Assembly: GCA_017634975.1 (NCBI GenBank)
Contig: JAGBMJ010000025.1
Coordinates: 124,001-188,000, forward strand
DNA length: 64,000 nt
Direction: 5' to 3'
Origin: Lachnospiraceae bacterium
GTDB lineage: Bacteria; Bacillota; Clostridia; Lachnospirales; Lachnospiraceae
Positions within the stretch are counted from its first letter, which is position 1. Every line of letters begins with the position of its first letter. Position numbers and translations under genes: made by a program. Below, piece after piece: positions 6,504 to 43,977 of the stretch. The notes under the pieces were generated by a model. That model was given only the letters and a program-made list of their open reading frames with translations. It was not told where the DNA came from and ran no database searches.

Positions 6504-7277
6504 ATGAAGGCAAATTTTGTTAAAGCAATGGGCGTGATCGCAACTGTAGCTTCTGTAGCAGGTGCACCTCTGATGGCTATGGCAGCTGAAGGCGAAGGTA
6601 GCGGCAGCTCCATCCCGGCAATCGCTCTGGATGACCTTACATCTGAAGAGGGTGTTAAGGTTGGCGAAGTTGTTCTGAAGGCAACAGCTGATGAAGAGGG
6701 TAACATCGAGTCCCTTAAGGTTTTGAAGGCTGACGGAACTGTTGATACAGATTTCGATGGTTTGCAGAACGTTGCATTCAAGGGCGGCAAGGCTGAGACT
6801 CTGGTAGTCATCGATGGTGAGTGGAACACCAAGTATGATTCCGCTAAAGACGGTGCATTCAAGATGGGCGACAACGAGTACTACGTAGCAGGTGGTGTTG
6901 TTAACCAGAACGCAAACGGTCTGATCTTTACCGGCGAGAAGGACGGTTTCCGTTTCCTGACAGCTGGTCGTGTAGCTACCGGCAACAAGGGTCTGGTAAT
7001 GTACAACAATGAGTGGTTCTACATCGATGACAACGGTAACTGCGACACAACCTACAATGCAGTTGTTGATTGGAACGATGCTAAGTTCGTTGTAACAGAT
7101 GGTCAGCTGAGACTTGACTACACCGGTTTCGTTGCAGAGCCGACCGAGATCAAGACCAGCACCACAATGAAGTACTATGTACTGGGTGGCCAGCTGTTCG
7201 GTGATGGCGAGATCACAGCTATCGGTTCCGACGGTGCTATGCATACTGAGACTGTTGCAGCAGGTGTTGTAAAGTAA
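6504..7277 (+). CDS. Small secreted protein consisting only of the shared wall-binding-type module
   Basis: 257 residues. A signal peptide (basic start, hydrophobic core, MAMA cleavage site near residue 27) is followed by a short Gly/Ser-rich stretch. The remainder (~40-257) is the module found in ten further proteins downstream. Diagnostic words are [48 protein letters not shown] and LRLDYTGF. No other domain is present and there is no C-terminal anchor. This is the most divergent copy (FVVTDGQLRLDYTG where others read [14 protein letters not shown]). Codon choice (GTT, GCT, AAC, GGT, CTG) resembles dnaK in this window and differs from most sister genes, which suggests strong expression. A consensus-like promoter, strong ribosome site and perfect terminator frame it. 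It could be an abundant coat or competitor protein for the module's ligand; its function is unknown. Confidence 0.9.
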   Translation: MKANFVKAMGVIATVASVAGAPLMAMAAEGEGSGSSIPAIALDDLTSEEGVKVGEVVLKATADEEGNIESLKVLKADGTVDTDFDGLQNVAFKGGKAETLVVIDGEWNTKYDSAKDGAFKMGDNEYYVAGGVVNQNANGLIFTGEKDGFRFLTAGRVATGNKGLVMYNNEWFYIDDNGNCDTTYNAVVDWNDAKFVVTDGQLRLDYTGFVAEPTEIKTSTTMKYYVLGGQLFGDGEITAIGSDGAMHTETVAAGVVK

Positions 7278-7320
7278 TTTTATCGACATCATTGTTGAAC
7301 AATTGATCTGAACGAATGAG

Positions 7321-7351
7321 GAGAGAGTTGTTTTTTGCAACTCTCTCTTTT
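7321..7351 (+). terminator. Rho-independent terminator after the stand-alone module gene
   Basis: A perfect 10-bp stem (GAGAGAGTTG at 7321-7330, CAACTCTCTC at 7338-7347) with a 7-base loop, followed by TTTT. I see no clear promoter between it and the peptidase gene at 7388, so partial read-through may feed the next genes. Confidence 0.85.
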
Positions 7352-7387
7352 CAGTTAAAGAAACGAAACGGATGGGAGATCAGGGGA

Positions 7388-9859
7388 ATGAAGGGAAGAT
7401 GGTCCAATAAAGGTTTCAGCAGACTGTGGAATAGCGGCTGTGCTTTGATGATCGGGGCACAGATCCTGGCGGGCAATGTGCTGACTGCAGCAGCAGAGGA
7501 ACCGGAAGAGACGCCGGTTTCGGAGCAGCAGGAGACGGGATCGGAAGAAAAATCTACAGCGGAACCGCAGGAGGCAGGGCCGGCAGAAGAAGCTGCAACG
7601 GAACCGCAGCAGGCAGGCACGGAAGAGGAAACTATAGTGGAACCGCAGGAGACAGAGCCGGAAGAGGAAGATGCTCAGGAAGAAGCGGAATCCGAAACGG
7701 ACGCATTGTCCGGATATATCGGTATGCCGGAAGAATATGATGTACCGGGGCTGGAGAGTGATCTGGATTATGATACTCTGCGCGGTATGCTGGTGGACGG
7801 ACAGGGATCGGAAGAACCGCTGCTGATGACAGCTCCCGAAACAGACTCACTGCCCGCAGCGTTTCCCTGCAAATATACCCAGTCGTGGCTGGAGTACATG
7901 ACGAAACATTACCCTGTCACCAGGAATCAGGGATCCTATGGTTCATGCTGGGCACATACTTCGGTAGCACTGGCGGAGTTTAACCTGATCAATCAAAAAA
8001 AAGCGGCTGCGGATATTGATCTGAGTGAACTGCATCTTTCTTACTGGGCCTATACAAAAGGCACAGCATCGGAAGCAGCGGGAGATACAGGGGATAATGT
8101 GACCTTTCAGACCGGCGGCAGATCGATCCTGAATAACGGCGGCAGTATGGGGATTGCAGCGCAGACACTGATGCGTCAGAGAGGTTACGCAAAGGAAGCC
8201 ACAGCGCCTTATTACACCAAGGCGGACGATGTAGCAAACGGCGAAGCGCTGGATGCATCGACGGAGCGGCAGGATGTTGCTTATCTGCAAAATGCATACC
8301 TGATCAATATCCGGGATGATGTGGATCTGGTAAAAGAGGCGATCCGGACGAATGGTGCGGTCGGCGCATCGATCTACGAAAGCTATTCCTATTACAACGC
8401 CGAAACCAATGCATATTATGAATGTACGCATACGGAAAAACAGATCAACCACGCGATCACGATCGTGGGCTGGGACGATGATTTTCCGAGAGATTCCTTT
8501 AAAACATGTAACGGGAAACTGCCGGAAAAGAATGGTGCCTGGCTGGTACGCAACAGCTGGTCTGCCAAAGCAGAGGCATCGTATCAGTCCTATCACTGGC
8601 TTTCCTATGAGGATACCTCTATATTGGGAGCATGGGTTTTTGAGGCGGGTACGGATTTTCCTTATGATAATCATTACTATTACGACAGCACAGTACACAA
8701 TGCCGCTTTTTATCGTGGTATGCGCGGCGCTAATATCTATACGGTAGACGGCCCGGCACAGGCCTCGGAAGAAAAACTGGCGGCAGTCAGCTTTGAAGTG
8801 GCAGCGGTCGGAGAAGAACCTTCGAAGTATACCGTGCAGATCTACCGGGACCTGAGCGGTAACACACCAAACAGCGGTGTGCTGGTTGAGGAGGCCACGA
8901 CTACGGGGACGATCGCCTTTAAGGGGCAGTATACGATTCCCCTGGCCGCACCGGTACTTCTGAATAAGGGAGAGAAGTTTGCTGTTGTTGTCTGGTTCGA
9001 CGATAAGTCTTATGCGTTGGAACAGGAACGCTCGATCTCCGATTACGGTTCGGTCAATGTAACGGTGGCATCCGCGAAGGGACAGAGTTTTCGCTCGTCG
9101 AACGGAACATCCTGGACGGATATGGGAACCGAGGGGAATCTGGTGATCTCTGCGCTGACGAAGAATGCAGGTGTGATACCCAAGCCGGTACCGACGCTGG
9201 AGGAGTACGTGGAAGGCGTGGTATTTGAAGATGATCCGCAGCATATCGTAAAAGCCGAAACCGATGCGAACGGTAATCTCAGAATGGTCAGGGTATATTC
9301 GAACGGAGGGACATCGATTGATAAGAATGTAGATTCACTGCTTCGAAACATACGGCTCAAAGGAAAGGACGGAAAGACGTATATTTATACGCTGGTATTT
9401 ACCGATGGCATATGGGACACCACGTATGATTCCGGTACCCGTGGAGCCTATACTTACAAAGGGGAATCCTACTTTGTGGCCGGCGGTGTGGTAAACCAGA
9501 ATGCCAACGGGCTGATCTATACCGGTGATAAAGAGGGATGGAAATTCCTTGCAGCGGGCCGGGTGGTAACGGATCATGCCGGACTGGTCATGTATGCGGA
9601 TAAATGGTTCTGGATCGATGGCGCCGGCAGCTGTGATCAGGAGTATGCAGCGATCGTGAAGTGGAACGGCGCTGACTTCCTGGTACATGGTGGCAGACTG
9701 CGTACGGATTATACAGGCTTCACTTACGATCCGCAGGACAGTGATACGTGGTATCACATCACCAACGGCCAGGTATGGGGCGATGGCGAGATCACGGACA
9801 TAAGCATTGAAGGCGGCGAGATCACACGGAATGTTGTTGGTGGTGTAGTACAAGAGTAA
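7388..9859 (+). CDS. Secreted C1A (papain-like) peptidase with lectin-like domain and C-terminal shared module
   Basis: 823 residues. I choose ATG 7388 (GGGAG at 7374-7378, spacer 9); the longer frame would run back through the terminator. Signal peptide ~1-35, then a Glu/Pro/Thr-rich linker (~36-105) in place of a recognisable inhibitor propeptide. The C1A domain has the oxyanion Gln and nucleophile in NQGSYGSCWAH (Cys187), His355 in NHAITIVGWDDD and Asn389 in LVRNSWS, so the catalytic triad is complete. PYDNHYYYDS begins the lectin-like domain (~425-570) usually found beside such clostridial peptidases. The shared module fills ~601-823. It is probably co-transcribed with the next peptidase gene 59 bases downstream. 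Role: cell-surface proteolysis; the substrate is unknown. Confidence 0.9.
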   Translation: MKGRWSNKGFSRLWNSGCALMIGAQILAGNVLTAAAEEPEETPVSEQQETGSEEKSTAEPQEAGPAEEAATEPQQAGTEEETIVEPQETEPEEEDAQEEAESETDALSGYIGMPEEYDVPGLESDLDYDTLRGMLVDGQGSEEPLLMTAPETDSLPAAFPCKYTQSWLEYMTKHYPVTRNQGSYGSCWAHTSVALAEFNLINQKKAAADIDLSELHLSYWAYTKGTASEAAGDTGDNVTFQTGGRSILNNGGSMGIAAQTLMRQRGYAKEATAPYYTKADDVANGEALDASTERQDVAYLQNAYLINIRDDVDLVKEAIRTNGAVGASIYESYSYYNAETNAYYECTHTEKQINHAITIVGWDDDFPRDSFKTCNGKLPEKNGAWLVRNSWSAKAEASYQSYHWLSYEDTSILGAWVFEAGTDFPYDNHYYYDSTVHNAAFYRGMRGANIYTVDGPAQASEEKLAAVSFEVAAVGEEPSKYTVQIYRDLSGNTPNSGVLVEEATTTGTIAFKGQYTIPLAAPVLLNKGEKFAVVVWFDDKSYALEQERSISDYGSVNVTVASAKGQSFRSSNGTSWTDMGTEGNLVISALTKNAGVIPKPVPTLEEYVEGVVFEDDPQHIVKAETDANGNLRMVRVYSNGGTSIDKNVDSLLRNIRLKGKDGKTYIYTLVFTDGIWDTTYDSGTRGAYTYKGESYFVAGGVVNQNANGLIYTGDKEGWKFLAAGRVVTDHAGLVMYADKWFWIDGAGSCDQEYAAIVKWNGADFLVHGGRLRTDYTGFTYDPQDSDTWYHITNGQVWGDGEITDISIEGGEITRNVVGGVVQE

Positions 9860-9918: not shown

Positions 9919-12354
9919 GTGAAAAAAAGAGCAATCAGCAGAATGCTGACAACGGTGCTTTCATCGGCGATGATCATAGGCCGGATGGGAACATCAATCC
10001 ATGTGCTGGCGGAAGGAGATACGTCGGAACCGGTCTGCGGGGAGGAAATAACAGAGGAAGAGCCTGTTGAGATCATAGAAGAAGATTTTGTGGAGGCTGA
10101 AGAAGAGAGTGTCGCAGAATGCGATGATACAGGATCCGTCATGGAACAGGATGGGCAGCCTTTTGGGAAGGGATATCAGATATCGCCGGAGGATCCGAAG
10201 GTACCCGCACTGAATAGCGCGCTTAGTTATGCGGAAATGCGTTCGGAGCTGGTGGAAGGAGATGATGATTTTCCGCTTGTTATGACAACTACACACCGTA
10301 TGGCTGCGGAGAGTGCGTACCCGGTAAGTTATGACGGGGAATGGCTGCAGTATATGAAAGATACCTTTCCGGCAACCAGAAGCCAGGGCATATACGGAAC
10401 CTGCTGGGCGTATGCGGCAGTTTTTCTGGGCGAGGCCTCGCTGATCAAACAGGGGCTGGCAGATAACAGCATTGATCTGAGTGAGCTGCATCTCGTGTAC
10501 TGGTCTTTTATGGACGGAACTCCTTCCAAAGCGGCAGGCGGCAGTGGGGATCGCATTGTCTTTTCGTCGGATGACGTACGAAATGATATGATGTATCTGG
10601 CGGGAAACGAAGCACTTGCAGTCCAGACTCTGATGCGTCAGAGAGGATATGCGGAGGAAAGTACAGCGCCTTACGATATGGCGGATGAGATTGAAAATGG
10701 CGGAAGTCTGGATGCAGCTACGGAGAGACAGGACAGCGCATATCTGGTGAATGCCTATCAGCTGAATATTGCGGAAGATCCGGAACTGGTAAAGGGTGCG
10801 ATCAAATTTAACGGCGGAGTGTCGGCCGGGATCCATGCGGATACCGATCGTATCGGCTATAACAGCAGCACCAATGCATACTGGAATTCGACGTCTGTCC
10901 GGCCGGATCACAATGTGGTACTGGTGGGATGGGATGATGATTATCCGAAGGAAAACTTTGTGGCAGCAGACGGGACATCCCCGGAACATAATGGCGCATG
11001 GCTGGTCCGTAACAGCTGGTCAGACACGGCTGAGGCTGATTACAGGTCATATTTCTGGCTGTCGTATGAGGACCGGTCTCTGGCACGGAGCGCATGGGCC
11101 TTTGAAGCAGACCGGAGTTTTCCGTATGACAATCATTATTATTACGACTCGGAGTATCATTTCAGCAGTGCTTATTGCTATGACAGCTTTGCCAATGTCT
11201 ATACGGTGAATGGAGAAGCAGGAGCCGAAAAGGAAATTTTGAAGGCGGTTGATTTTGCCGTAACTCTCGGAGAGACATCAACGGAGTATACGGTGGAAAT
11301 ATACAAGGACCTTGCAGGAGACCGGCCGGACACGGGAGTCCTTGCCTCTGTGGTGAAGGGAAAGGTCTTTTTTCCGGGGAACTACACGGTAGAACTCAGT
11401 GAGCCGGTAACGCTGGAGCGTGGGAGCAGTTTCGCCGTGGTGATCCGTTTTGACCGGACGGATGCGGCTGTTCCCATGGAATATATCGTTTCGGGAGAGG
11501 GCGCCGTGCAGTTTGTGGCACATCCGGAAGGGAAGAGTTTCTATCAGGCGGGAAATACCTCCTGGCGTAAGAACAGTTCCGGTGATTTTTCCATCGGTGC
11601 ACTTACTGTGGATTCCGGAAATACGGTAATACCCACGCCGACAGAGAAACCGGACGTTACGCCGACACCGGCAGATCCCGGCAGCAATTCATATCACAAA
11701 GAGGATGCTGTGGCAGGGGTATCTGCAATGGACGCGGAACATACCCTGCGCTTAACACTCGATCAGAAGGGGAATTTCTCGGACGCTGTGATCCTTGGTG
11801 CCGACGGAGAGGTTGATACATCGGTGGATTCCTATATTGCCAATATCTTTACCGGCAATAAGAATGCAGACGGTACGGAGGAGTTTTATTCCCTGGTATT
11901 TACCAACGGCAGGTGGGATACTTCCTACGATTCCGGGAAGATGGGAGCGTACACTTATCAGGGGGAATCCTATTTTGTAGCCGGTGGCGTGGTAAACCAG
12001 AATGCGAACGGCCTGATCTATACGGGAGATGCCGGCTGGAAGTTTCTGGCAGCCGGACGGGTAGTAACCGGGAATGCCGGTCTGGTGATGTATGGCGACC
12101 GGTGGTTTTGGATCGACGATACCGGAAGCTGTGATGACAGTTATGCTGCGATCGTGAAATGGAACGGTGCGGACTTTCTGGTGCATGGCGGCAGGCTTCG
12201 CACGGACTATACCGGTTTCACCTATGATCCGCAGGACAGGAGCAGGTGGTATCACATCACTGCAGGGCAGGTATGGGGAGACGGAGAGATCACTGATATC
12301 AGCATCGAAGGCGGCGAGATCACGCGGAAGGTAATAAACGGTGTGGTGGAGTAA
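9919..12354 (+). CDS. Second secreted C1A peptidase with lectin-like domain and shared module
   Basis: 811 residues from GTG 9919, with AGGAGGT at 9904-9910. Signal peptide ~1-31 (ending VLA), then an acidic stretch to ~75. Catalytic residues are all present: Cys162 in GTCWAYAA, His331 in DHNVVLVGWDDD, Asn365 in LVRNSWS. The lectin-like domain begins at PYDNHYYYDS and runs to ~550. A short TPTEKPDVTPTP linker (~573-584) leads into the shared module (~590-811). It is a clear paralog of the preceding gene: identical domain order and many shared phrases such as QTLMRQRGYA and IDLSELHL. No promoter is evident in the 59-base gap upstream and a strong terminator follows, so the two peptidases probably form one transcript. 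Confidence 0.9.
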   Translation: MKKRAISRMLTTVLSSAMIIGRMGTSIHVLAEGDTSEPVCGEEITEEEPVEIIEEDFVEAEEESVAECDDTGSVMEQDGQPFGKGYQISPEDPKVPALNSALSYAEMRSELVEGDDDFPLVMTTTHRMAAESAYPVSYDGEWLQYMKDTFPATRSQGIYGTCWAYAAVFLGEASLIKQGLADNSIDLSELHLVYWSFMDGTPSKAAGGSGDRIVFSSDDVRNDMMYLAGNEALAVQTLMRQRGYAEESTAPYDMADEIENGGSLDAATERQDSAYLVNAYQLNIAEDPELVKGAIKFNGGVSAGIHADTDRIGYNSSTNAYWNSTSVRPDHNVVLVGWDDDYPKENFVAADGTSPEHNGAWLVRNSWSDTAEADYRSYFWLSYEDRSLARSAWAFEADRSFPYDNHYYYDSEYHFSSAYCYDSFANVYTVNGEAGAEKEILKAVDFAVTLGETSTEYTVEIYKDLAGDRPDTGVLASVVKGKVFFPGNYTVELSEPVTLERGSSFAVVIRFDRTDAAVPMEYIVSGEGAVQFVAHPEGKSFYQAGNTSWRKNSSGDFSIGALTVDSGNTVIPTPTEKPDVTPTPADPGSNSYHKEDAVAGVSAMDAEHTLRLTLDQKGNFSDAVILGADGEVDTSVDSYIANIFTGNKNADGTEEFYSLVFTNGRWDTSYDSGKMGAYTYQGESYFVAGGVVNQNANGLIYTGDAGWKFLAAGRVVTGNAGLVMYGDRWFWIDDTGSCDDSYAAIVKWNGADFLVHGGRLRTDYTGFTYDPQDRSRWYHITAGQVWGDGEITDISIEGGEITRKVINGVVE

Positions 12355-12379
12355 AACAGAACAGAGAAAGACAAAAAAT

Positions 12380-12404
12380 GTCGCCTGCGATGGGCGACTT
12401 TTTT
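12380..12404 (+). terminator. Rho-independent terminator after the second peptidase gene
   Basis: Stem GTCGCC (12380-12385) pairs with GGCGAC (12393-12398) across a 7-base loop, followed by six T. Confidence 0.85.
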
Positions 12405-12405
12405 G

Positions 12406-12434
12406 TTGTTTTTCGGGAACAGGTATATTATACT
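12406..12434 (+). promoter_or_regulatory. Sigma-A-type promoter for the Ig/Big_2 proline-repeat protein
   Basis: TTGTTT at 12406-12411, a 17-base spacer and TATACT at 12429-12434. It lies directly behind the preceding terminator, which makes this gene its own transcription unit. Confidence 0.55.
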
Positions 12435-12550
12435 TGTTAGCGTTAACTGCATATACTGCGGAGATGATTCTGAAATGGCAATCAGATGGATTCGCTAGTA
12501 TATACGGATCGTGTTTTAGCAATATGGGAAGTAGATCAGGAGGTACTACG

Positions 12551-15500
12551 ATGGCAAGACGATGGGCGAGAAAACTCGGACGCGGAATGGCAGTGATTAT
12601 GGCCGTTTCACAGATGAGCGGAATGGCGGTATGGGCTGCTCCGGAAGATGCTCAGAACGAAACAGAGGTGGAACAGGCGGAATATGAGGAACATGAGCTT
12701 GTTCACGGAGTGACGATAACGCCAGTGGGGGGGACAACTGTAACTCCACATTTTAACGAGGCTTTTACCCTGCAGGTACAGGTTACAAAGGATGATGATG
12801 CGGCGTATACGTATGAATGGTATAAAGATTTTCGGTCAAATGGCAACAAGCTAAATGTTCACACAGAAGAACTGACAGTTACGGAAGGTGTTTCGGCAAC
12901 GCAGCAGGCATATATATTTTGCGTGTTTCAGGATGGAATGACCCAGCCTGTAGCTGAGAAGACGTTTACGGTCAAACCGACCAATGATCTGGAAGCGCAT
13001 GTTAAAGGAGATCCGGATAGTCAATCTAAAAATTTATGCTTGCCGTACGGTTCTTCGGTGACATTGAGTGTGGAAGCGAGCGCGCATGATGAATCCAATA
13101 TGAATTACACTTGGCGTAATGTGGATATACGTAATTTAGTATCGGGGACAGCTTGTACCGATTATACGATCGATAAGGTGGAAAAGAACGACACCTATAC
13201 ATGTTATGTTTCAGACGGAATATCGACTTTTGATGCGTTGGTGGATTTTATTATTACAATAGACAATGCGTTTGTCGCATATCCGGAGGGAGAGGCGGAA
13301 ACAGAAACCACAAAGACCATAAATGCTGAGACAGGCAGTGAGCTGACCCTGAAGGTGATCGCATCCTGTAAAGATAATTCGTTGGGGTATGGCTGGGGAT
13401 CAAAGACAGCGCGGCAGTCAGCTTATACAACGGTACTAGGGGCAGCAAGTGATACATATACAGTAACCGTGGGCAGTGAAGAGATGTACTACCGGTGCAG
13501 TGTATATGATCAATTTAAGAATAATAAGCAGATCGTATTTATCGTGAAGCCGGTAACACCGACGCCTACGACAGTTGCTGTGACCGGTGTTACTTTGGAT
13601 AAAGGTACACTGGAATTACAGGCAGGAGAGAGTACGACTCTTACAGCAACCGTAAATCCGACCGATGCCAGCAATAAGAATGTGAGCTGGAGCAGCAGTG
13701 CTCCGGGTGTGGCTGCGGTAAGCGCAAGCGGTGAAGTGACGGCCGTGTCTGCCGGAACGGCAACGATCACGGCGCGTACGGAAGACGGTGATCATGAGGC
13801 AACCTGTGCAGTAACGGTAACGGAGACAGAGCCTAGTCCGAGTCCAAGCCCGGAGACGACGGAAACACCGAGTCCAAGCCCGGAGACAACAGGAACGCCG
13901 AGTCCGAGCCCGGAGACAACGGGAACACCGAGTCCGAGCCCGGAGACAACAGGAACACCGAGTCCGAGTCCGGAGACAACAGGAACGCCAAGCCCGAGCC
14001 CGGAGACAACGGGAACGCCAAGCCCGAGCCCGGAGACAACAGGAACGCCGAGCCCGAGTCCGGAGACAGAGCCTAGTCCGAGTCCGAGCCCGGAGACAAC
14101 AGGAACCCCAAGCCCAAGCCCGGAGACAACGGGAACACCGAGTCCGAGTCCGGAGACAACGGGAACGCCGAGTCCGAGTCCGGAGACAACAGGAACGCCG
14201 AGTCCGAGCCCGGAAACAACGGGAACACCGAGTCCGAGTCCGGAGACGACGGGAACGCCGAGTCCGAGTCCGGAGACAACAGGAACGCCAAGCCCGAGCC
14301 CGGAGACAACGGGAACACCGAGTCCGAGCCCGGAGACGACGGGAACGCCAAGCCCGAGCCCGGAGACGACAGAAACGCCGAGTCCGAGCCCGAAGACAAC
14401 AGAAACCCCAAGCCCGAGCCCGGAAACAACGGGAACGCCGAGTCCGAGTCCGGAGACAACGGAAACGCCGAGTCCGAGCCCGGAGACAACGGGAACGCCA
14501 AGCCCGAGCCCGGAGACAACAGGAACACCGACGCCGAGTCCGAGCCCGGAAGCAACAGGAACCCCGACGCCGACACCTGTCCCCACTCCGGTAAAGGTGA
14601 CCGGCGTAAGTCTGAATAAGACAACACTGAATCTGCTGGTTGGGACCACGTCCACGCTGGCGGCAGATGTGAATCCGGCAAATGCAGCTGACCGGAAGGT
14701 AAGCTGGTCCAGCAGCGATCCGGCCGTGGCAGCCGTAGATGAGAACGGAACCGTAACGGCGGCAGCAGCAGGCAGGGCAACCATTACGGTAAAGACTGCG
14801 GACGGTGGTTTTACCGCAGACTGTGAAGTAAATGTAACGGAAGAAACCATAGCATTGACCGGTATCCGTATAGACCGGGAAGAACTGACACTGACCGAAG
14901 GCGATACCGCTGCCCTGATCGTGAGTATGGTACCGGAGAACGCTACCGAGCAGAAAACCGTATTCGGCAGCAGTGACGAAAACGTAGTGACGGTTGATCC
15001 AAACGGAAAGATCACGGCAATAGGAGCAGGAACGGCGACGGTCACGGCGTCGACCGAAGACGGAGCATTTACGGCAGCCTGTCAAGTGACCGTAGAAGCA
15101 AAGCCGGTGGTAACAAGTGTAAGTCTGAATGTGACAACACTGGAGCTGGTGGTCGGCAGGACGGCCGTGCTGGAGCCGGGATTTGTGCCGGAGGATGCGC
15201 AGAATAAGGATGTAACCTGGAGCAGCAGCAATGAAGCGGCAGCAACTGTTGATGAGAACGGAAAGGTGACCGCCGTAGCCGCAGGTACTGCTGTGATCAC
15301 GGTGACCACGGCAGAGGGCGGACTGACAGCGGAATGTACGGTAACGGTTACAGAAAAGACGGAGATCAGTAACAATACTTTCTCTGTCGATCAGGCAGCC
15401 GAAGGGGTGCCGGTCATCAACAACAGCGATTATACCCTGAAACTGGATATGGATGCGGAGAAGGGAACGATCCGTTCCGCGGCGATCTATGATACGGAAG

Positions 15501-16051: not shown

Positions 16052-16070
16052 ACATAATATTATATTCCTG

Positions 16071-16140
16071 AGACAGGCAGAGGGACGGTTCTTGTTGTCG
16101 GATGAAATCAGACAAAAGAAGAGTCTCTCTGTCTTTTTGT
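16071..16140. repeat. Degenerate REP-like palindrome, possibly acting as terminator
   Basis: Arms at about 16071-16099 and 16110-16134 pair imperfectly (AGACAG...TTCTTGTTGTC against GACAAAAGAAGAG...CTGTCT) and end in TTTTT. The core GGGACGGTTCTTGT also occurs in the intact palindrome at 56443-56522, so this is probably a decayed copy of the same element that also ends transcription of the upstream gene. Confidence 0.6.
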
Positions 16141-16141
16141 C

Positions 16142-16170
16142 TTGAAAAAAGACCGGATATCTGTTACAAT
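16142..16170 (+). promoter_or_regulatory. Sigma-A-type promoter for the PPC-domain protein
   Basis: TTGAAA at 16142-16147, a 17-base spacer and TACAAT at 16165-16170, with an extended -10 TG at 16162-16163. Confidence 0.65.
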
Positions 16171-16218
16171 CAACAAGGTTACATAAGATTGCCAACTACG
16201 GAAAGGAAGGTGCTTAAC

Positions 16219-18171: not shown

Positions 18172-18203
18172 AGAAATGTTTTTGTAACAGAAGTATAAGA
18201 CAG

Positions 18204-18239
18204 ACGGCTTCCGGAAAGAATGTTCCGGAAGCCGTTTTT
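18204..18239 (+). terminator. Rho-independent terminator after the PPC protein gene
   Basis: A 13-bp perfect stem, ACGGCTTCCGGAA (18204-18216) with TTCCGGAAGCCGT (18223-18235), is followed by a T run. Confidence 0.9.
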
Positions 18240-18280
18240 GTCTTAGAAATACCGGCACACGTGCAGAACGCAGATTCGTA

Positions 18281-18309: not shown

Positions 18310-18347
18310 AATAGCAATTTCAGTAATTAAAACGACGGAGGTAAGCA

Positions 18348-36800: not shown

Positions 36801-36920
36801 ACCAAAGTCTGGTATCATATCACCAACGGCCAGGTATGGGGCGAAGGTGAGATCACCGATATCAGCATCGAAGGCGGAGAGATCACACGTAACTGTGTAA
36901 ATGGTGCAGTCGTGGGCTGA
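27837..36920 (+). CDS. Giant secreted protein: ~24 Ig-like domains, five Big_2 domains and C-terminal shared module
   Basis: 3027 residues from ATG 27837 (GGAGG eight bases upstream). Signal peptide ~1-30, a very acidic Glu/Asp/Ala stretch to ~155, then about 24 tandem Ig-like domains of ~90-95 residues (~158-2366). Each unit typically opens with a FxAYPEG-like strand, has a central Y-x-W and a YxCxVxDxYGN strand, and ends VDN. The conserved Cys in the second motif usually has no partner Cys in the unit, so these are not classic disulfide Ig folds. Five Big_2 domains (~2370-2798; GVTLDK starts, TATVDENGKVTAVAAG cores) and the shared module (~2800-3027) complete it. It probably forms a long flexible fibre projecting from the cell. 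Its first three domains are paralogous to the 12551 protein. Confidence 0.93.
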   Translation: MKRTTKQRLSRAMAAIMLISQFSPMGVYAASDDTGIEIVSEEAVEETGEESTVEAASEDAMDEASVEESAADEVTANDADSEDTADADSEEDAAVSDTEADSEDDETASDEEAADPEDELTEEEIEEDLEEVEFYDEEVVEVEDEEPERLGSVSVEPIDGIYTIEPHFNETFTLEMVVTQDDDEAYTYEWYEDGNRKYGTKMDSTTTTLTVEDGVDRYTPYYFYVIDSGDKVVDYTTIYVYPTNDLEAYVKDDENKARSANLSVPYGESVTLSVVASAYDDENITYQWYGPDGKDEEAKDPDYTIDKVTDKVTWYCVVNDGYGSEQVWFYITVDNSFVAYPEGEEETATYKNVNVLVGDDVTLKVIAESSEGDLTYEWGSYYASGVLGDKASLELTDVTEATSYYCHVSDQFGNSKYIYFYIQLDNEFSIKAYVNDEEKEVPGSSYTNIEVKEDAGTKVELKVEGSAHEDSEMKYQWSVRSLNSNGYTTIEDATGKTYTPEASGYYRCMVSDGYSNNSLTVTFYVVFDNDFKAYPDGEEEDAFSTTIAAEVGSEAVLKVAVSGKDTTDVTYKWTNDSNDDLSNETGKSLTISEVSKKEVYYCTVTDKYGTSRRITFNVIVDNSFVAYPEGEDETATSKDVTVLAGDDATLKVIASSTDKSITYQWKKYDSDNWKWVDLEEETTESLKLEKVKAAANYRCLVSDQYGNKKEIAFTVHVDNKFNAYPEGTEPGTGYVSINADPGDTVELKVVVEAHDDSQMKYEWHGNGIIEGAEKASYSVTKSGSYYCTVSDGYGNRKYVNFDVKIDNAFKAYPYGEDEDAASTTIAVKKGADAELKVVTSGNDLTGVTYLWESNDQQEDLSANTGSSLTVKNITEKKVYHCTVNDKYGSSSRYITFNVIVENGFDAYPAGAKTGITTVDHTVKFGQDITLEVIATATDKSLTYEWDRNYDALEETSGKLVLTGVKASGTYHCKVSDQFNNSKTLTFNVNADNEFVAHPDGVNEDTNILYMTVLGSETPAALKVVTGALDDSKLSVEWYSGYHYSYGYGGTKLEETGTTLSVSESGTYTCYVTDGYESSKCIYFYVTVDNGFAAYPEGCEKDSSEADIAVAAKGDTATLKVAVDALDKSKITYAWSGSTAVSSETGASVEVAVDKKAVYRCTVSDPYGNSKTVTFNVSVNSALTAALMLNGENVTDTDSDGVVTVKSTDKLELKMVADAENKEGLKYQWTNNGVVAGSSDTLVYEDLSKTIPGTISCTVTDQYGNTVTKSIEIVIDNAFYAYPAGSESKESYGTIVTVKAGGNDTIEVTAEAMAGELHYSWSGGTSDTNKLPVSKSGTYTCTVRDDYGHSKSVVFGVTADNALDAYPEGAVNGLSITKNVTANEAFTMKAFATANDKESISYKWTKGSARNTVIGKTAELSVGGIDKNTTYYCVVSDTYGNSKTLTFNMVVFDNEFRAWASGYDASSTSVYIYRGDDVELKVEVSGKDTEGVTYSWRRGYGSSTIAGETTDTLKLSSVTEQNYYYCDVKDAYGNSQSVYFYISFNSKYQVYAGDEDVTDATVNVKPGDDAVLKVRVVSEEELQLKYYWSKNGRTISGTTATQTISAKDLKNGDRYSCMVKDSNGNQTQVSFAISVDNGFSAYVAGTEETTATIKALAGATVELAVDAKADDGKLTYSWKKDSETISETSAVLKDTADKNADYSCTVTDSYGHSTLITFNVNVRNRFTVHPEGTKLDTAYITVPAGKDTVLKVEAEGTDLKDVVYHWAKYNPYTSNYDLLDGNKESLTLTAVKTAAQYRCVVTDAYGNSSTVYFNVEADNQFVVKAACDTDQTVAPNSDVKLSVSVSASDKEGITYQWYKGAPYGTDARINGVDGDAFTVKGLTESTYYYCRVEDAYGNSEFVTFRLTVDNAFDAYAAGYEVKETYAYIYVDYGKSATLEVAVEAKDDSKVTYSWSKSWTTGYSAKDSKYVLDKVTKAETYRCTVSDGYGNSKTIYFYVQVENSLSLKADGDNYVTAEYGKPLTLAVTAEANDADHLVFDWGGAKGTEKVDGTKASLTLDAVKKSGDYVCTVRDQYGNSRQVTFYVKVENNLKATADKSEVTVEYGKDATLKVSVTANETKGITYAWSGSEYDKEAGYNKNIVLRDADEAQLTVKNVCKTARYTCIVTDAFGNRQTVEFTVAIDNKLDVQLNDQTVKYGDSATLSATVSAGNKEGITYEWFSSERVSDSYRIIGEKESSLKVGSVKVTRTYTIKATDIYGNTATASATVNVDNGLTIAVDGDAEFVAAQGDKVTMKVTATAASGNITYTWNKYYYYAETDRWSSYGEVANANKNSYTSTVYTTTKFVCTATDDFNNRKSVEFVIRIKGDEPIAVTGVTLDKGELILAVGDTATLTETVAPQGADNRKVTWTSSDTAVATVDEKGNVKAVAAGTAIVTVKTEDGGFTATCEVTVEEQLTPVTGVTLDKKTLEMETGDKAVLTATVAPEGASNKKVSWSSDKADVAKVDEKGNVTAVTAGTAKITVTTEDGEFTDTCEVTVTAKEVPVEGVSLNKNKLSLVIGDKYTLAAAVKPMDASNQNVSWTTSDEAVATVNENGEVIAVAAGKATITVTTEDGEQKAVCEVTVTEEAVALTGITVDQEEVTLKEGETATLIVSMVPEDATEQKVVFSSSDGAVASVDQDGTITAVAAGKATITVKTEDEAFSATCEVTVEAATTVTSVSLNEVKLELVVGKTAQLVATVEPEDAQNKEVTWTIDKPAVATVDENGKVTAVAAGKATITVTTVDGELTATCEVTVNKKTEISGNTFSLEQAAKGVPVINNSDYTLKIERNEKGAIVSATIYGPDDKVATEIDSYIANIVTEYDTDGKTPKTFYSLVFTNGQWDIKYDSGTKGAYKYLGVEYFVAGGVVNQNANGLIYTGADGWRFLAAGHVVTGHKGLVMYANEWFWIDDEGRCDDTYAAIVKWNGANFLVHGGRLRTDYTGFTYDPQNTKVWYHITNGQVWGEGEITDISIEGGEITRNCVNGAVVG

Positions 36921-37189: not shown

Positions 37190-40100
37190 ATGAAAAGAAG
37201 GAATAAGCGAAACCTGAACAGGGCACTGGCTCTGCTTACCAGCGGTGCAATGCTGGCCGGAGATCTGTTACCGGTACTTGCTGCCGAACCGACAGAGGGT
37301 GCTGTGAAGGAAGCATCGGAAGGGAACGGGGAAGAAGGGTATTTTCCGTTTGTTCCGGGCTATATCCCGGAGGATGACGATGTTCCTGCGGTAGTGAGCG
37401 GATTGAGCTATGCACAGATGCGCGAGGAACAGGTATCGACGGATGAGGAGCGTCTGTTTACGGCACCTTCCAGTGATGCCACCGAGAGCGCCTATCCGAT
37501 GTCCTATACAGAGGACTGGCTGACCTATATGAAAACCACATATCCGACGACCCGTAATCAGGGCAGTTACGGAACATGCTGGGCGCATTCCGCCATGTTT
37601 TTGGGAGAAGCGTATCTGATCAAACATGGTAAGGCAGATACGAGCATTGATCTGAGCGAACTGCATCACGCCTACTGGAGTTATACGACCGGAACCGGTT
37701 CAGCAGCCGCCGGCTATACGGGAGACAAAGCAGTATATACCAAGTCGGAAGATGCGGAGACGATCCTCGATAACGGCGGCAATCTGAGTTATTCGGCACA
37801 GAGTCTTATGCGTCAGCGCGGCTACGCAAAAGAGAGTGTTGCACCCTATTCCGATGCCGCAAAAGTTGCGGCCGGAAACGGTTTGGATGCAAGTACGGAG
37901 CGGAATGATTCGTTTTATCTGACGAATGCATATGAACTTAATATTCAAGAGAATCCCGGGCTGGTAAAGAGCGCCATCAAGGAAAACGGAGCCGTTGGTG
38001 TTTCCATCTATGCGCAGTCCTACAAAAATCCGCCCACCGGACCGGATTTCTATAACGATTCTAATAATGCGTACTGGTGTCCGCAGGCGTATTCGACCAA
38101 TCACGCCGTGGCCATCGTCGGCTGGGATGATGATTTCCCGGCGGATAGATTTGCTGAACAGGGCGGTCTGCTCCCGGAAGGAGACGGTGCATGGCTGATC
38201 CGGAACAGCTGGTCAACGACGACAAAGGAAGATTATTTTTCTTATTTCTGGTTGTCCTATTATGATGCTTCTCTGCTGAAAAAGCCGGTTGCATGGGCTT
38301 ATGAGGCGGATAACAAATTCCCGTATGACAATCATTATTATTACGATTCCCAGATACATAAGACAGGCTATATCAGTAATTCGACTATACCACTTCACTA
38401 TGCCAATATCTATACCGTGAACGGAGCGGCCGGCGCGGAAAAAGAAGTGCTGGAAGCGGTTGATTTTGAAGTACATTCGGTCCCCGGGGAAGGCGTGGGT
38501 TATACGGTCGAGGTATATACTGACCTGACCGGTGATACGCCGGCAACCGGTACAAAGGTTTCTGCGGCAACGACAACAGGACAGTTGTACTTTAATGGTG
38601 ATTATACGGTGAAACTGGCAGAGCCGGTAAGTCTGACGAAAGGAAGCCGATTTGCGATCGTACTGTATTTTGACAAAGCGGGAATGGGTGTTGCACGCGA
38701 AGTGAGCACACAATTCGGCGCGGTCGCGATAACCGCTGCATCAGCGGGAAACAGCTGTTACCTGAGCGGAAGCACATGGAAAAACAGTGACTATGATTTT
38801 GTATTGGGTGCGCTGACGACAGACGGTGAGGGCGGTGAATCGGTGACCCATGTGACAGGTGTCAGCCTGAATACGGACAGCCTGCAGATGCGTCCGGAGG
38901 ATACGGCGACACTCGTGGCGACCGTAGAGCCGGAAGATGCAGACGATCCGTCCGTGAGCTGGAGCAGCGATGAACCGACGGTAGCGATCGTAGATGCTAA
39001 CGGCAAAGTGACGGCGGTGGCAGAAGGAACGGCAACGATCACCGCAACGACCACCGACGGAGGCTATACGGCGGACTGTGAAGTGACGGTCACGGATGCG
39101 GATGATCTGAAGATCTCTTTTGGAATATCCTCGATTACTTTATGCATGGGGACAAAGGGATATCTGGAGGCAACGGTGATGCCGGAACCGGAGAATCCGC
39201 CGACCTTCATCTGGAGCAGTGGTGATGAAAGCATTGTGACGGTTAAAGAATCCGGAGATGGGGTGGAACTGACACCGGTAGCACTGGGAACGACGGTGGT
39301 TACGGTGAAGACATCAGACGGAAAATCGTCTGCTTCTATTCCGGTGACGGTTAAGGGGATTGATGTGATCGGCGTAACACTGGATAAAGAAACGCTGGAA
39401 TTGAAAGAAGGAGAGAGTGAGACTCTTACAGCATCGATAAAACCGACCGGAGCAACAAATAAGAATGTGATCTGGAGCAGCAGTGATGAGGATGTGGCAA
39501 CGGTAAGTGCAAGCGGTAAAGTAACCGCAGTGTCTGCCGGAACAGCAACAATCACGGTGGTCACGGAAGACGGAGATTTTGATGCGACATGTGAAGTGAC
39601 GGTAACGGAAGCAGAACCGAGCCCGAGTCCGACAGAGCCGGAACCGGTGACGGTCGATGTGACCGGAGTTACTTTGAGTGAAGATACACTGGAGTTAAAA
39701 GAAGGAGAGAGTGCGACCCTTACAGCGACAGTAGAACCGGAAGATGCCACCAATCCGAAGGTAAGCTGGAGCAGCGATGATCCGGATGTGGCAACGGTAA
39801 GTGATAGCGGCAAAGTAACCGCAGTGTCTGCCGGAACGGCAACGATCACGGTGCTCACGGAAGACGGGAACTTTGAAGCAATCTGTGAAGTGACGGTAAC
39901 GGAAGCAGAACCGAGCCCTTCGCCGTCGCCGACGGAACCGGAACCTGTGACAGTCGATGTGACCGGTGTTACTTTGAGCGAAGATACACTGGAGCTAAAA
40001 GAGGGAGAGAGCACAACCCTTACAGCGACAGTAGAACCGGAAGATGCCACCAATCCGAAGGTAAGCTGGAGCAGCGATGATCCGGATGTGGCAACGGTAA

Positions 40101-42091
40101 GTGATAGCGGTAAAGTAACCGCAGTGTCTGCCGGAACGGCAACGATCACAGTGCTCACGGAAGACGGGAACTTTGAAGCAATCTGTGAAGTGACGGTAAC
40201 GGAAGCAGAACCGAGCCCGAGTCCGACAGGGCCGGAAGACGATCCGGAGCCGACAGAGCCGGAAGACGATCCGGAGCCGACAGAGCCGGAAGATGATCCG
40301 GAGCCGACAGAGCCGGAAGATGACCCGGAGCCGACAGAGCCGGAAGATCCGACACCGACAGAGCCGGAAGATCCGACACCTACGGAGCCGGAAGCCCCGA
40401 CGCCTACGGAGCCGGAAGCCCCGACGCCTACGGAGCCGGAAGACCCGACGCCTACGGAGCCGGAAGCCCCGACGCCTACGGAGCCGGAAGACCCGACGCC
40501 TACAGAGCCGGAAGACCCGACGCCTACGGAGCCGGAAGCCCCGACGCCTACGGAGCCGGAAGCCCCGACGCCTACAGAGCCGGAAGACCCGACGCCTACG
40601 GAGCCGGAAGACCCGACGCCTACAGAGCCGGAAGATCCGACGCCTACAGAGCCGGAAGACCCGACGCCTACAGAGCCGGAAGACCCGACGCCTACAGAGC
40701 CGGAAGACCCGACGCCGACAGAGCCGGAAGATCCGACACCTACGGAGCCGGAAGACCCGACGCCTACGGAGCCGGAAGACGATCCGAGTCCGACGCCGGT
40801 ATCGATGGAAGATGCAGCTGCACAGATCGAGGAAAAGGGTGTAGATGCCGTAGTTGAAAGTATTAAGGACAGCGACAGTGCAAGCATTGCGGAGGCAATG
40901 TCCGACCCGAAGCAGGTGGCGGCGCTGGCGCTGATCGAAGATAGTTACAAAGAGGCACACAATATCACGGAGAAGACGCCGGAATCTAAAGTAGAAGGGA
41001 TCGACGCATCCAGGATAGAAATGACGGGTGCTGCATTGAATATCGATTCCGGTTCGGTTGGTCTGGTGATCACCGAGCCGCAGAATACAGAAAAGATCGA
41101 CCGGGACGGATATGGCAAGCTGTTTCTGTTTGATATGACGGTGGATGCAGTCAAAGAGGATGGTTCCAAAGCGGACTATTCCGAAGAGCTGGATATCCCG
41201 GTAACGATCACGATGCCGGTTCCGGAGGTTGTCTCGTTGGACAGCCTGAGCCTCGTACACTTTGACAAGGACGGTCATGGTACGGAACTGAAAATGCTTC
41301 TGGATACAGAGAAGCGTTCGATCACCTTTACGGTGACGCATTTCAGTCTGTTTGCTTTTGCGAATGTGGCGGAAGAACAGGACAAGCCGGAAGAACCCAA
41401 GGAGCCGGTAAGCGGCAATACCTTCTCCGTAGAGGCAGCAGCAAAAGAGGGTATCCCTGTGATCCAAAAGGGGTATACCCTGAAGCTGGAGACGGATCCT
41501 CAGACCGGAGCATTTAAGTCTGCAACGATCTGCGATGCGGAAGGCAAGCCGGCAGATGTGGATTCCTATCTGGCCAATATGGTTACGGAGTATGAAGCGG
41601 ACGGCAAAACACCGAAGACTTTCTACACCCTCGTATTTACGGACGGCAAGTGGGATACTTCCTACGATTCCGGAGAAAAAGGCGCATATGAGTATAAGGG
41701 TGTAGAGTACTTTGTTGCCGGTGGTGTTGTGAACCAGAATGCGAACGGCCTGATCTATACCGGTGCAGCCGGCTGGAGATTCCTGGCGGCAGGTCATGTG
41801 GTAACAGATAATGAAGGCCTGGTAATGTATGCCGACAAGTGGTTCTGGATCGATGCGCAGGGCAAATGTGATGATACATACGCGGCAATCGTGATGTGGA
41901 ACGGAGCGAACTTCTTAGTACACGGCGGCAGACTGCGTACGGATTACACGGGATTTACCTACGATCCTCAGAATACGGCCAAGTGGTATCATATCACGGC
42001 CGGTCAGGTATGGGGCGACGGAGAGATCACCGACATGAGCATCGAAGGCGGCGAGATCACACGTACGGTAGTGAACGGAGTAGTACAATAA
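37190..42091 (+). CDS. Large C1A peptidase with lectin-like, Big_2, PEDPT-repeat and shared-module domains
   Basis: 1633 residues. Signal peptide ~1-31. C1A peptidase (~100-380) with Cys130 in NQGSYGTCWAHS, His305 in NHAVAIVGWDDD and Asn339 in LIRNSWS. Lectin-like domain (~385-535) starting PYDNHYYYDS. Five Big_2-like domains (~554-1003) follow; the last two are near-identical because of a 300-bp duplication. Then come a TEPEDPTP stalk (~1013-1203), a mixed domain of ~200 residues (~1204-1400) whose end (PVTITMPVPEV, then ITFTVTHFSLFAFA) resembles a closing beta-sandwich of clostridial surface proteins, and the shared module (~1407-1633). It is the longest of the three peptidase paralogs. No terminator is visible before the next gene 47 bases away, so the two are probably co-transcribed. 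Confidence 0.92.
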   Translation: MKRRNKRNLNRALALLTSGAMLAGDLLPVLAAEPTEGAVKEASEGNGEEGYFPFVPGYIPEDDDVPAVVSGLSYAQMREEQVSTDEERLFTAPSSDATESAYPMSYTEDWLTYMKTTYPTTRNQGSYGTCWAHSAMFLGEAYLIKHGKADTSIDLSELHHAYWSYTTGTGSAAAGYTGDKAVYTKSEDAETILDNGGNLSYSAQSLMRQRGYAKESVAPYSDAAKVAAGNGLDASTERNDSFYLTNAYELNIQENPGLVKSAIKENGAVGVSIYAQSYKNPPTGPDFYNDSNNAYWCPQAYSTNHAVAIVGWDDDFPADRFAEQGGLLPEGDGAWLIRNSWSTTTKEDYFSYFWLSYYDASLLKKPVAWAYEADNKFPYDNHYYYDSQIHKTGYISNSTIPLHYANIYTVNGAAGAEKEVLEAVDFEVHSVPGEGVGYTVEVYTDLTGDTPATGTKVSAATTTGQLYFNGDYTVKLAEPVSLTKGSRFAIVLYFDKAGMGVAREVSTQFGAVAITAASAGNSCYLSGSTWKNSDYDFVLGALTTDGEGGESVTHVTGVSLNTDSLQMRPEDTATLVATVEPEDADDPSVSWSSDEPTVAIVDANGKVTAVAEGTATITATTTDGGYTADCEVTVTDADDLKISFGISSITLCMGTKGYLEATVMPEPENPPTFIWSSGDESIVTVKESGDGVELTPVALGTTVVTVKTSDGKSSASIPVTVKGIDVIGVTLDKETLELKEGESETLTASIKPTGATNKNVIWSSSDEDVATVSASGKVTAVSAGTATITVVTEDGDFDATCEVTVTEAEPSPSPTEPEPVTVDVTGVTLSEDTLELKEGESATLTATVEPEDATNPKVSWSSDDPDVATVSDSGKVTAVSAGTATITVLTEDGNFEAICEVTVTEAEPSPSPSPTEPEPVTVDVTGVTLSEDTLELKEGESTTLTATVEPEDATNPKVSWSSDDPDVATVSDSGKVTAVSAGTATITVLTEDGNFEAICEVTVTEAEPSPSPTGPEDDPEPTEPEDDPEPTEPEDDPEPTEPEDDPEPTEPEDPTPTEPEDPTPTEPEAPTPTEPEAPTPTEPEDPTPTEPEAPTPTEPEDPTPTEPEDPTPTEPEAPTPTEPEAPTPTEPEDPTPTEPEDPTPTEPEDPTPTEPEDPTPTEPEDPTPTEPEDPTPTEPEDPTPTEPEDPTPTEPEDDPSPTPVSMEDAAAQIEEKGVDAVVESIKDSDSASIAEAMSDPKQVAALALIEDSYKEAHNITEKTPESKVEGIDASRIEMTGAALNIDSGSVGLVITEPQNTEKIDRDGYGKLFLFDMTVDAVKEDGSKADYSEELDIPVTITMPVPEVVSLDSLSLVHFDKDGHGTELKMLLDTEKRSITFTVTHFSLFAFANVAEEQDKPEEPKEPVSGNTFSVEAAAKEGIPVIQKGYTLKLETDPQTGAFKSATICDAEGKPADVDSYLANMVTEYEADGKTPKTFYTLVFTDGKWDTSYDSGEKGAYEYKGVEYFVAGGVVNQNANGLIYTGAAGWRFLAAGHVVTDNEGLVMYADKWFWIDAQGKCDDTYAAIVMWNGANFLVHGGRLRTDYTGFTYDPQNTAKWYHITAGQVWGDGEITDMSIEGGEITRTVVNGVVQ
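39632..40230 (+). repeat. Exact 300-bp tandem duplication of a Big_2 domain
   Basis: Bases 39721-39780 recur identically at 40021-40080, and 39781-39840 recur at 40081-40140 with one change (C to T). The period is exactly 300, one Big_2 domain plus its PSPSPTEP linker. The low divergence points to a recent duplication or homogenisation. Confidence 0.95.
40228..40795 (+). repeat. 24-bp coding tandem repeat (TEPEDPTP stalk)
   Basis: About 23 units. The first four encode the longer type PEDDPEPTE, the rest TEPEDPTP or TEPEAPTP. Units vary mainly at third positions and at the Asp/Ala codon. The array is in frame and codes for an acidic, proline-rich rod. Confidence 0.95.
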
Positions 42092-42138
42092 GAGAAACTG
42101 TATAGAGCTGTTTTCGGAAAAGACAGGAGGAGTGCGGT

Positions 42139-43977
42139 ATGAAGAGAATGTTGTTGCAAAGACTTTTTGCCGGAACGATGACATCGGTGGTATTGATCAC
42201 ACAACCCGTGATGCAGGCGTATGCCTTTGAGGAAGCAGCCGATACGGAGGAGATCCCGGATGAAGAAGAGACGGAAGAGGATCTCGAAGAGATCGAATAT
42301 TATGATGTAGAAGAAGTTTTGGAAGAAGAGGAAGAACCGGAAGAGGCGGAGGCAGAAGAAGCAAGGGTTGCCTCCGGCGAAAAGGGGATCGGCAATACGT
42401 TTTCTAAAGAAGATGCGGAAACGGGAGTGACTGCCGTAGATGCCGATCACACCCTGAAGCTGGAGACGAATGCCAAAGGTCTGTTTGTTTCGGCGGAGAT
42501 CCGGAAAAACAACGGAACCGTTGATAAAAGTATCAGCTCCTATCTGGCGAATATCGTTACGGAGTACGAAAACGACGGTGTTACGCCGAAGACGTTTTAC
42601 ACGCTGGTATTTACGGACGGCAAATGGGATACTTCCTACGATTCCGGAGAAAAGGGCGCGTATGAGTACAAGGGTGTCGAGTACTTTGTTGCCGGCGGTG
42701 TGGTAAATCAGAATGCGAACGGTTTGATCTATACCGGTGCAGCCGGCTGGAGATTCCTGGCGGCAGGGCATGTGGTGACGGACAATGCCGGTCTGGTAAT
42801 GTACAACGGTGACTGGTTCTGGATCGATGCGCAGGGCAAATGTGATGATACATACGCGGCGATCGTGAAGTGGAACGGAGCGGATTTCCTGGTGCACGGA
42901 GGCAGACTGCGGACGGATTACTCCGGTTTTACCTACGATCCGGAACATAAGGATGACTGGTACCATATCGTGAACGGCCAGGTATGGGGGGACGGCAAGA
43001 TCACGGATCAGAGTATCGAGGGCGGCACGATCACCCGCAACGTAGTGAACGGAAAGGTATCCGGTGGAGAACCGAAGGAATACATCAATCCGGTGACCGA
43101 CAAGGAGTTTACCGTGATCCCGGATGACGGCATCGATGATACGGCGGAGATCAATCACGCATTGACGGTAGCTGCGGTAGATACCGATCATCACACTGTC
43201 TATCTGCCGGCCGGCGTATACGATATCAGTATACAGGGCGGGGAAGGAAAGAGCGCCCTCCTGTTCCAGTATGAAGGCCAGAAACTGATCATGGATGAAA
43301 ATGCCGTCCTGCGGTTGTCTTCCAACGGTTATCACGGATACAATGCGATCCTGGTGCATGCAGATAATGTAACGATCAAAGGAGGACAGCTGATCGGTGA
43401 GCGTGCGGGGCATTCCGCGGATGAACTCGGATACGGACACGGTATCGCGATCGACCGGGCCCATGCCGGTATCTATGATATGAAGATCTGCTCCAACAGG
43501 GGAGACGGCATCTATCTGGCAGACCGGGGAAGCAAGGTCGAGTGCTATGATGTAACGATCAATAATTGTGAGGTCTATGACAATGCACGCAGCAACATTT
43601 CGATCGTCCGGGCCGATGATGTCAGCATCACGGGTTGTGATCTGCACGGTGCCTATGGGACTGCACCGATGGCAGGACTGAATATCGAACCCAACCGGTC
43701 GTCTTCGGGAAGCTTTTATTGCTGCAACCGGATCACGGTGAAAGATACGGTCTTCTCCAGTTATCAGAATGTGGCTCCGTTCCTCGGGGATGACGGATTG
43801 TGGTGCGGATATGCGTATCTGGTACTGTCTCACACCGGCGGCATTGTTGCCACGGATGTTACTCTTCAGAACTGCACCTTTAACGGGGCATTTGATAACG
43901 GGGATACGAGCGGGACTTATGTAAAGGACTGCGTATTCAACGGAGATATTTTTGAAAGAAGTCCGATCACGTATTAA
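42139..43977 (+). CDS. Secreted beta-helix protein with an INTERNAL shared module
   Basis: 612 residues from ATG 42139 (AGGAGG upstream). Signal peptide ~1-29, acidic linker to ~78, then the shared module at ~84-308 (NTFSKEDAETGVTAVDADH start; VVNGKVSGG end). Unlike all its sisters the protein goes on: residues ~312-612 form a right-handed parallel beta-helix of the pectate-lyase/polysaccharide-hydrolase type (GVYDISIQGGEGK, NVTIKGGQLIGE, GIAIDRAHAGIYD, ISIVRADDVSITG). A catalytic triad for pectin cleavage cannot be assigned by eye, so the substrate is open. The module is closest in wording to that of the upstream peptidase (DSGEKGAYEYKG and [17 protein letters not shown] in both), which fits local duplication. 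A strong terminator follows. Confidence 0.9.
   Translation: MKRMLLQRLFAGTMTSVVLITQPVMQAYAFEEAADTEEIPDEEETEEDLEEIEYYDVEEVLEEEEEPEEAEAEEARVASGEKGIGNTFSKEDAETGVTAVDADHTLKLETNAKGLFVSAEIRKNNGTVDKSISSYLANIVTEYENDGVTPKTFYTLVFTDGKWDTSYDSGEKGAYEYKGVEYFVAGGVVNQNANGLIYTGAAGWRFLAAGHVVTDNAGLVMYNGDWFWIDAQGKCDDTYAAIVKWNGADFLVHGGRLRTDYSGFTYDPEHKDDWYHIVNGQVWGDGKITDQSIEGGTITRNVVNGKVSGGEPKEYINPVTDKEFTVIPDDGIDDTAEINHALTVAAVDTDHHTVYLPAGVYDISIQGGEGKSALLFQYEGQKLIMDENAVLRLSSNGYHGYNAILVHADNVTIKGGQLIGERAGHSADELGYGHGIAIDRAHAGIYDMKICSNRGDGIYLADRGSKVECYDVTINNCEVYDNARSNISIVRADDVSITGCDLHGAYGTAPMAGLNIEPNRSSSGSFYCCNRITVKDTVFSSYQNVAPFLGDDGLWCGYAYLVLSHTGGIVATDVTLQNCTFNGAFDNGDTSGTYVKDCVFNGDIFERSPITY

Follow-up and report, generated by a model that had tools for sequence, protein, structure and literature searches.

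Gene cluster and shared module

The window, a stretch of 64,000 nucleotides from a Lachnospiraceae bacterium (GCA_017634975.1, contig JAGBMJ010000025.1, positions 124,001 to 188,000), contains a cluster of twelve genes at 6504–43977, eleven of which encode proteins that share a module of 222–226 residues. Its genome is referred to below as G000 and its contig as C11, and G032, G006 and G021 are same-genus relatives. All genomes compared are draft assemblies; that of the window is 99.13% complete with an estimated contamination of 7.46%. The pairwise identity among the eleven copies is 44–81%, copy 1 being the outlier (44–49%), and their alignment contains 69 invariant columns, which bears out the proposal of the initial annotation that one module defines this cluster; the copy boundaries given there agree with the present ones to within ~25 bases. 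The copies score 304–404 bits against their profile, which excludes chance, although the profile was built from the same 11 copies and the scores therefore show coherence and not an independent discovery. Signal peptides, which had also been noted before, are seen by eye at the N termini. The module is C-terminal or makes up the whole mature protein in 10 of the 11 cases.

All eleven genes lie on the plus strand. Copy 1 (6609–7274, gene 6504–7277), the most divergent, belongs to a stand-alone secreted protein composed of the signal and the module only. Three proteins contain a Peptidase_C1 domain followed in each case by a Lectin_like domain, namely those with copy 2 (9191–9856, gene 7316–9859), copy 3 (11686–12351, gene 9919–12354) and copy 10 (41414–42088, gene 37190–42091), the last one also with Big_2 domains. 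Copy 4 (15371–16048) follows Big_2 domains and a Pro/Thr/Ser-rich tandem-repeat linker in the open reading frame 12341–16051, the true start of which is probably downstream of the listed GTG. The partners of copies 5 and 6 are PPC domains (17497–18168, gene 16102–18171) and a GH9 domain (Glyco_hydro_9) with a (TETP)n linker (20088–20765, gene 18348–20768). Copy 8 (26942–27607, gene 24218–27610) is attached to LRR_5 and Big_2 domains, and copy 9 (36240–36917, gene 27837–36920) is part of a 3,027-residue protein with Ig and Big_2 domains. In the product of gene 42139–43977 the module (copy 11, 42391–43065) is internal, occupying residues 85–309 of 612, and precedes a beta-helix domain (Beta_helix). 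The partners of the initial annotation are hence recovered by Pfam (three C1A peptidases, GH9, beta-helix, PPC, LRR, two Ig/Big_2 and none in one case), except for the Fn3-like domain assigned to the protein with copy 7 (21730–22395, gene 20818–22398), where the partner has no Pfam match above cut-off.

Between cargo and module there are tandem-repeat linkers at 13838–14573 (30-bp units), 19812–20033 (12-bp) and 40249–40780 (24-bp), which encode Pro/Thr/Ser- or Pro/Thr/Glu-rich stretches. The only gene of the cluster lacking the module, 22481–23986 on the minus strand, encodes a hydrophobic protein of 501 residues with no Pfam match above cut-off, which looks like a membrane protein.

Copies in the genome and in relatives

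A genome-wide count, which the initial annotation had proposed, gave 33 matches to the module profile in G000, corresponding to 22 distinct modules: the 11 of the window and 11 others on C11 outside the window and on contigs C20, C120, C122, C128, C130 and C142. Four matches on contig C105 repeat those on C11, and the three of them beyond its first 20 kb agree with their C11 counterparts in length and score. C105 (28.8 kb) is probably an assembly duplicate, as its initial 20 kb are found in C11 at 100% identity. The copies on C128 and C142 are cut off at the contig ends, and C120 carries a 73-residue remnant of the module. On C122 (L050:18219–19378, minus strand) the N-terminal part of the module lies outside the reading frame of the rest, which indicates either gene disruption or an error in the sequence. 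Proteins encoded on C81 and C131 of the same genome have Choline_bind_4 arrays in place of the module.

The full module was not found beyond G000 in samples of relatives, family and order, which overlap, and among the 35 genomes of the genus it is present in G000 only. Apart from G000 itself, the matches are partial: G021 and G032 in the relatives (matches in 3 of 98 genomes), G132, G230 and G461 in the family (4 of 397 sampled), and G736 and G531 in the order (3 of 392 sampled). A search of genome contigs returned one locus with a partial match, and none was found in viral contigs, plasmids or phages.

The family might have expanded merely through tandem duplication, its members having no common function, and many copies do stand in tandem in one island. 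This is hardly plausible, since 69 columns are invariant despite the 44–81% identity and the unrelated cargo, which indicates constraint. Moreover, nonsynonymous divergence (dN) in six module pairs of G000 is 0.13–0.23 against a synonymous divergence (dS) of 0.75–1.68, and copies are found on other contigs too.

Family and fold of the module

No Pfam family is above cut-off over the module in any of the 11 copies scanned, the best sub-threshold ones being Choline_bind_1 (E 0.045, two copies) and Choline_bind_4 (E 3.4, one copy). NCBIfam was applied to all proteins but that of copy 9 (10 of 11), and only matches in Big_2 regions are above cut-off. Searching the PDB by sequence gave no match to the module at E up to 1, and the Choline_bind_4 arrays had none at E up to 0.001.

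The comparison of profiles places the module nonetheless: its columns 66–204 match the Choline_bind_4 (PF21540) arrays of the relatives (hhalign 99.6%, E 3e-24, 137 columns). The AlphaFold model of copy 9 is matched in a structure search by choline-binding, CROP and glucan-binding solenoids in the PDB, and the prediction is a stacked beta-hairpin solenoid of at least three repeats, with about five hairpins counted by reading the strands. According to PMC5817068, where CWB1 repeats are reported from Lachnospiraceae among other families, three repeats are needed. By profile homology and predicted fold, the module is over its C-terminal ~60% a diverged relative of known cell-wall-binding repeats. 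In copy 9 this part spans 36534–36836 on the plus strand and is preceded by an N-terminal part of 98 residues (36240–36533, plus strand). For the N-terminal ~95 residues no relative was found outside G000 among the genomes searched, and there is no match to the Choline_bind_4 arrays (hhalign 1.9%). In G006 and G021 there are stand-alone DUF4214 proteins whose likeness by eye had suggested a common N-terminal domain, which hhalign (0.5%) does not support.

The initial annotation could not match the module to SLH, CWB2, LysM, LPXTG or dockerin systems. At E up to 1, the Pfam matches of the 11 proteins include none of these, but ~60% of the module consists of diverged choline-binding-type (CWB1) repeats. 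A described anchor family over the full module length, which was held to refute a separate display system, is seen for the C-terminal part only, and the N-terminal ~95 residues are unmatched. The module resembles the choline-binding repeats (PF01473, PF21540) in its predicted beta-hairpin solenoid, in its C-terminal position on varied secreted cargo and in the homology over 137 profile columns. It differs from them in remaining below Pfam cut-offs, in the added N-terminal part, in a changed C-terminal tail and in motifs. TGW, the aromatic motif of canonical choline-binding repeats and choline sites, occurs in none of the 22 modules and in none of 31 Choline_bind_4-type arrays, and GW is present in 19 of 22 modules and 2 of 31 arrays. 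A single Cys in a G-x-C-D turn (near window position 36693) is found in 22 of 22 modules, where the Choline_bind_4 consensus has Leu; its role may be in the core or in disulfide pairing.

The fold and the homology would also be in line with an ordinary choline-binding domain, the ligand of which is phosphocholine on teichoic acid, and of the 35 genomes of the genus 26 encode LicD, G021 and G032 among them. The lack of TGW and of any Pfam choline-binding model above cut-off on all 11 copies makes this very improbable. LicD was not found in G000, a weak argument given that 8 other genomes of the genus also lack it and that other choline enzymes were not searched. Choline is unlikely to be the ligand, judging from the sequence motifs. 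A loss of choline decoration, suggested by the missing LicD, was considered as the cause of an anchor switch in G000 and is weakened by the occurrence of LicD in 26 of 35 genomes against 3 of 35 for Choline_bind_4 and by the lack of TGW in either repeat type. PMC6722419 notes for one subspecies that choline-binding proteins occur together with genes for choline teichoic acid, and mentions an exception.

The island between hrcA and grpE

The module genes stand among genes for polysaccharide assembly. Upstream of them, four genes at 36–6297 (plus strand) encode Acyl_transf_3, Glycos_transf_2 and MBOAT proteins and one without Pfam match, candidates for glycan modification. Directly downstream, 44117–48500 (plus strand) encodes Glyco_tran_WecG, a Bac_transf sugar-phosphate transferase and LytR_cpsA_psr, candidates for glycan assembly and attachment. 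The right-hand edge of the island is formed by grpE, dnaK and dnaJ (51803–55857, plus strand), and on its left is the gene at C11:110498–111529, presumably hrcA. From the end of hrcA (C11:111529) to the start of grpE (C11:175803) there are ~64 kb.

In G006 the same gap is ~12.4 kb and holds an LRR-DUF4214 gene, a small DUF4214 gene, homologues of WecG, Bac_transf and LCP, and two more genes. In G032 an LRR_5 gene with Choline_bind_4 begins 330 bp after hrcA, on a contig that stops short of grpE. hrcA and grpE are adjacent in G021, with the order hrcA-grpE-dnaK-dnaJ intact, the anchor genes being located on different contigs. A Wzm/Wzt-type exporter is located directly after an anchor gene in G000, and the same exporter (95–97% identity) directly after a different anchor gene in G032. 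A distant one (29–36%) is on the contig of the DUF4214 genes in G021. A genus-wide conserved anchor locus at WecG was rejected, as no anchor gene was seen by eye beside WecG in 9 other genomes.

WecG and Bac_transf of G000 share 65–69% identity with their counterparts in G032, G006 and G021. Among the latter three genomes the two proteins are 74–82% identical, and most core genes compared are more than 90% identical. The larger divergence of the two G000 genes suggests, without proving it, that the wall or capsular glycan of G000 differs from that of the relatives.

Different anchors on matching cargo

For the 22 module proteins, the sequence outside the anchor was compared with the corresponding regions of 31 Choline_bind_4-type proteins (26 from G032, 3 from G021 and 2 from G000). 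A cargo match at E ≤ 1e-5 exists for 17 of the 22 module proteins, and in 14 of these the match is not limited to Big_2 and the signal region. The closest pairs are all with G032: a cargo that presumably is clostripain-like (95% identity), LRR (89%), GH9 (78%), beta-helix (77%) and PPC (66%). Both beta-helix proteins have their anchor in an internal position. The clostripain-like genes have a single DNA match of 2,227 bp at 93.6%, beyond which the compared stretches show no match in either direction, and in this pair as well as in the LRR pair the anchors do not align at the DNA level.

Within the genus, 3 of 35 genomes have PF21540 matches. A third anchor, DUF4214 (PF13946), is found in 2 of 35, G006 and G021 with 16 matches each, and has no match in G000. 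It takes the same C-terminal place: a related LRR protein ends in four DUF4214 repeats in G006 and G021, with a cargo 49% and 62% identical to that of G000, respectively, and so does a small secreted-type protein beside the LRR gene. DUF4214 cargo likewise matches Choline_bind_4 cargo of G032, with 56–59% identity over 432–520 residues for a transglutaminase-like protein (so called because it resembles L035, where that Pfam domain is present) and about 29–31% for an LRR_5-like one. No homology of DUF4214 to the module was detected by profile comparison (hhalign 0.06%). The dominant anchor is the module in G000, Choline_bind_4 in G032, DUF4214 in G006, and DUF4214 together with Choline_bind_4 in G021. 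DnaJ alone suggested G000 and G032 as sister species, which was not retained: HrcA and an aminotransferase-like gene leave G032 and G006 without clear separation at the protein level, and the genomes are therefore referred to only as close relatives.

Between G000 and G032, dS is 0.53 for HrcA, 0.67 and 0.67 for two aminotransferase-like genes and 0.26–1.01 for four other core genes. The values for the clostripain-like cargo (0.28) and the LRR cargo (0.71) are within the core range. For the LRR protein, descent from the common ancestor with a later change of anchor fits this core-like value. The clostripain-like cargo may have moved between the lineages. The remaining cargo pairs, with dS from 1.08 to saturated, are weaker evidence for exchange.

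It could also be that no exchange took place and that the pairs are old paralogues, of which different sets were retained in each species after duplication and loss. The six module pairs of G000 have dS values equal to or above those of the core genes between the species (0.26–1.01), indicating that the family predates the split, and several cargo pairs are saturated. Such a history is unlikely, though it keeps some weight, because the clostripain-like and LRR cargo diverged no more than core genes and yet carry anchors that cannot be aligned as DNA.

Proposed function of the module

Together with the homology of the repeats and the fold predicted for them, the mismatches between cargo and anchor and the linkage of the genes indicate that the module is probably a non-covalent cell-surface anchor, most likely to a wall glycan, and that the cargo-anchor junction is probably a site of exchange between lineages. 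The signal peptide would export the protein, and the module would bind a wall or capsular glycan and retain it at the wall; this glycan would most likely be the product of the polysaccharide genes of the same island. The C-terminal ~60% would act as a diverged beta-hairpin stack of the choline-binding (CWB1) superfamily, to which the N-terminal ~95 residues appear to be a beta-rich addition seen in G000 only, among the searched genomes. Long Pro/Thr/Ser-rich linkers could lift the cargo outward in several of the proteins. The interpretation in the initial annotation is partly supported: a "dedicated surface-display system" fits the 22 copies in one genome, the swap with known wall-binding repeats in the same position of related proteins and the linkage to genes of polysaccharide export and ligation, and the lack of a match to known systems is only half right.

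Another function to be considered is that of a substrate-binding domain, similar to carbohydrate-binding modules, which aims enzymes at plant or host polysaccharides and not at the cell's own wall. The GH9, beta-helix and peptidase partners would suit such a role, as would related repeats in glucansucrases and in clostridial CROPs, which are known to bind glucans or host glycans. These share the fold in the structure search (matched by title), but occur there on toxins and glucansucrases. It is nevertheless a distinctly unlikely role, as the module is also attached to Ig, Big_2 and LRR proteins and forms a stand-alone protein, and its genes are located among those of glycan export and ligation. 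Furthermore, the relatives substitute DUF4214, a domain that according to PMC12780176 probably anchors proteins to the surface in segmented filamentous bacteria. To this assignment the present genomes add support; in the portion seen of PMC6034559, peptides of DUF4214-type proteins from these bacteria are merely listed.

If the module is a wall anchor, its cargo repertoire of proteases, GH9, beta-helix, LRR and Ig proteins would overlap with that of the close relatives while the anchor differs by lineage, and recombination at the cargo-anchor junction could either swap anchors or drop a cargo into the resident signal-anchor frame. It is tentatively hypothesized, as a possibility short of a probable one, that the species of the genus draw on a common cargo pool, mounted on different and partly non-homologous anchors that are matched to the glycan of the co-localised polysaccharide locus. 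The anchor would then be a lineage-specific address code and its choice would follow the resident glycan, with cargo moving as cassettes into the resident frame.

By analogy, a precedent for anchor exchange within a single family is PspC of Streptococcus pneumoniae, where one cargo family has a choline-binding (PspC/CbpA) or an LPxTG (PspC2) anchor, as described in PMC6107515. PspC is a single protein family of one species, whereas here many cargo families, three module types and four related genomes are involved. No report of anchor exchange across a whole repertoire was found in the portions of the open-access literature that were covered. The case bears on the puzzle of how bacteria change the wall anchor on many proteins and yet keep their surface proteome. 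The module would represent a new compact display module, and because three module types replace one another on corresponding cargo across four related genomes, in part at the same chromosomal island, the co-evolution of anchor and ligand becomes directly testable.

A further arrangement of anchor genes is present in G032 (L066, G032:C149:8586–28585). At 11589–19681 of this locus a Phage_integrase gene (15186–16193) lies between two mutually facing LRR_5-like genes, both of which carry Choline_bind_4 arrays. The 5′ ends of the two genes make up an inverted repeat of 285 bp with 93.7% identity, and the arrangement is possibly an invertible surface-gene switch.
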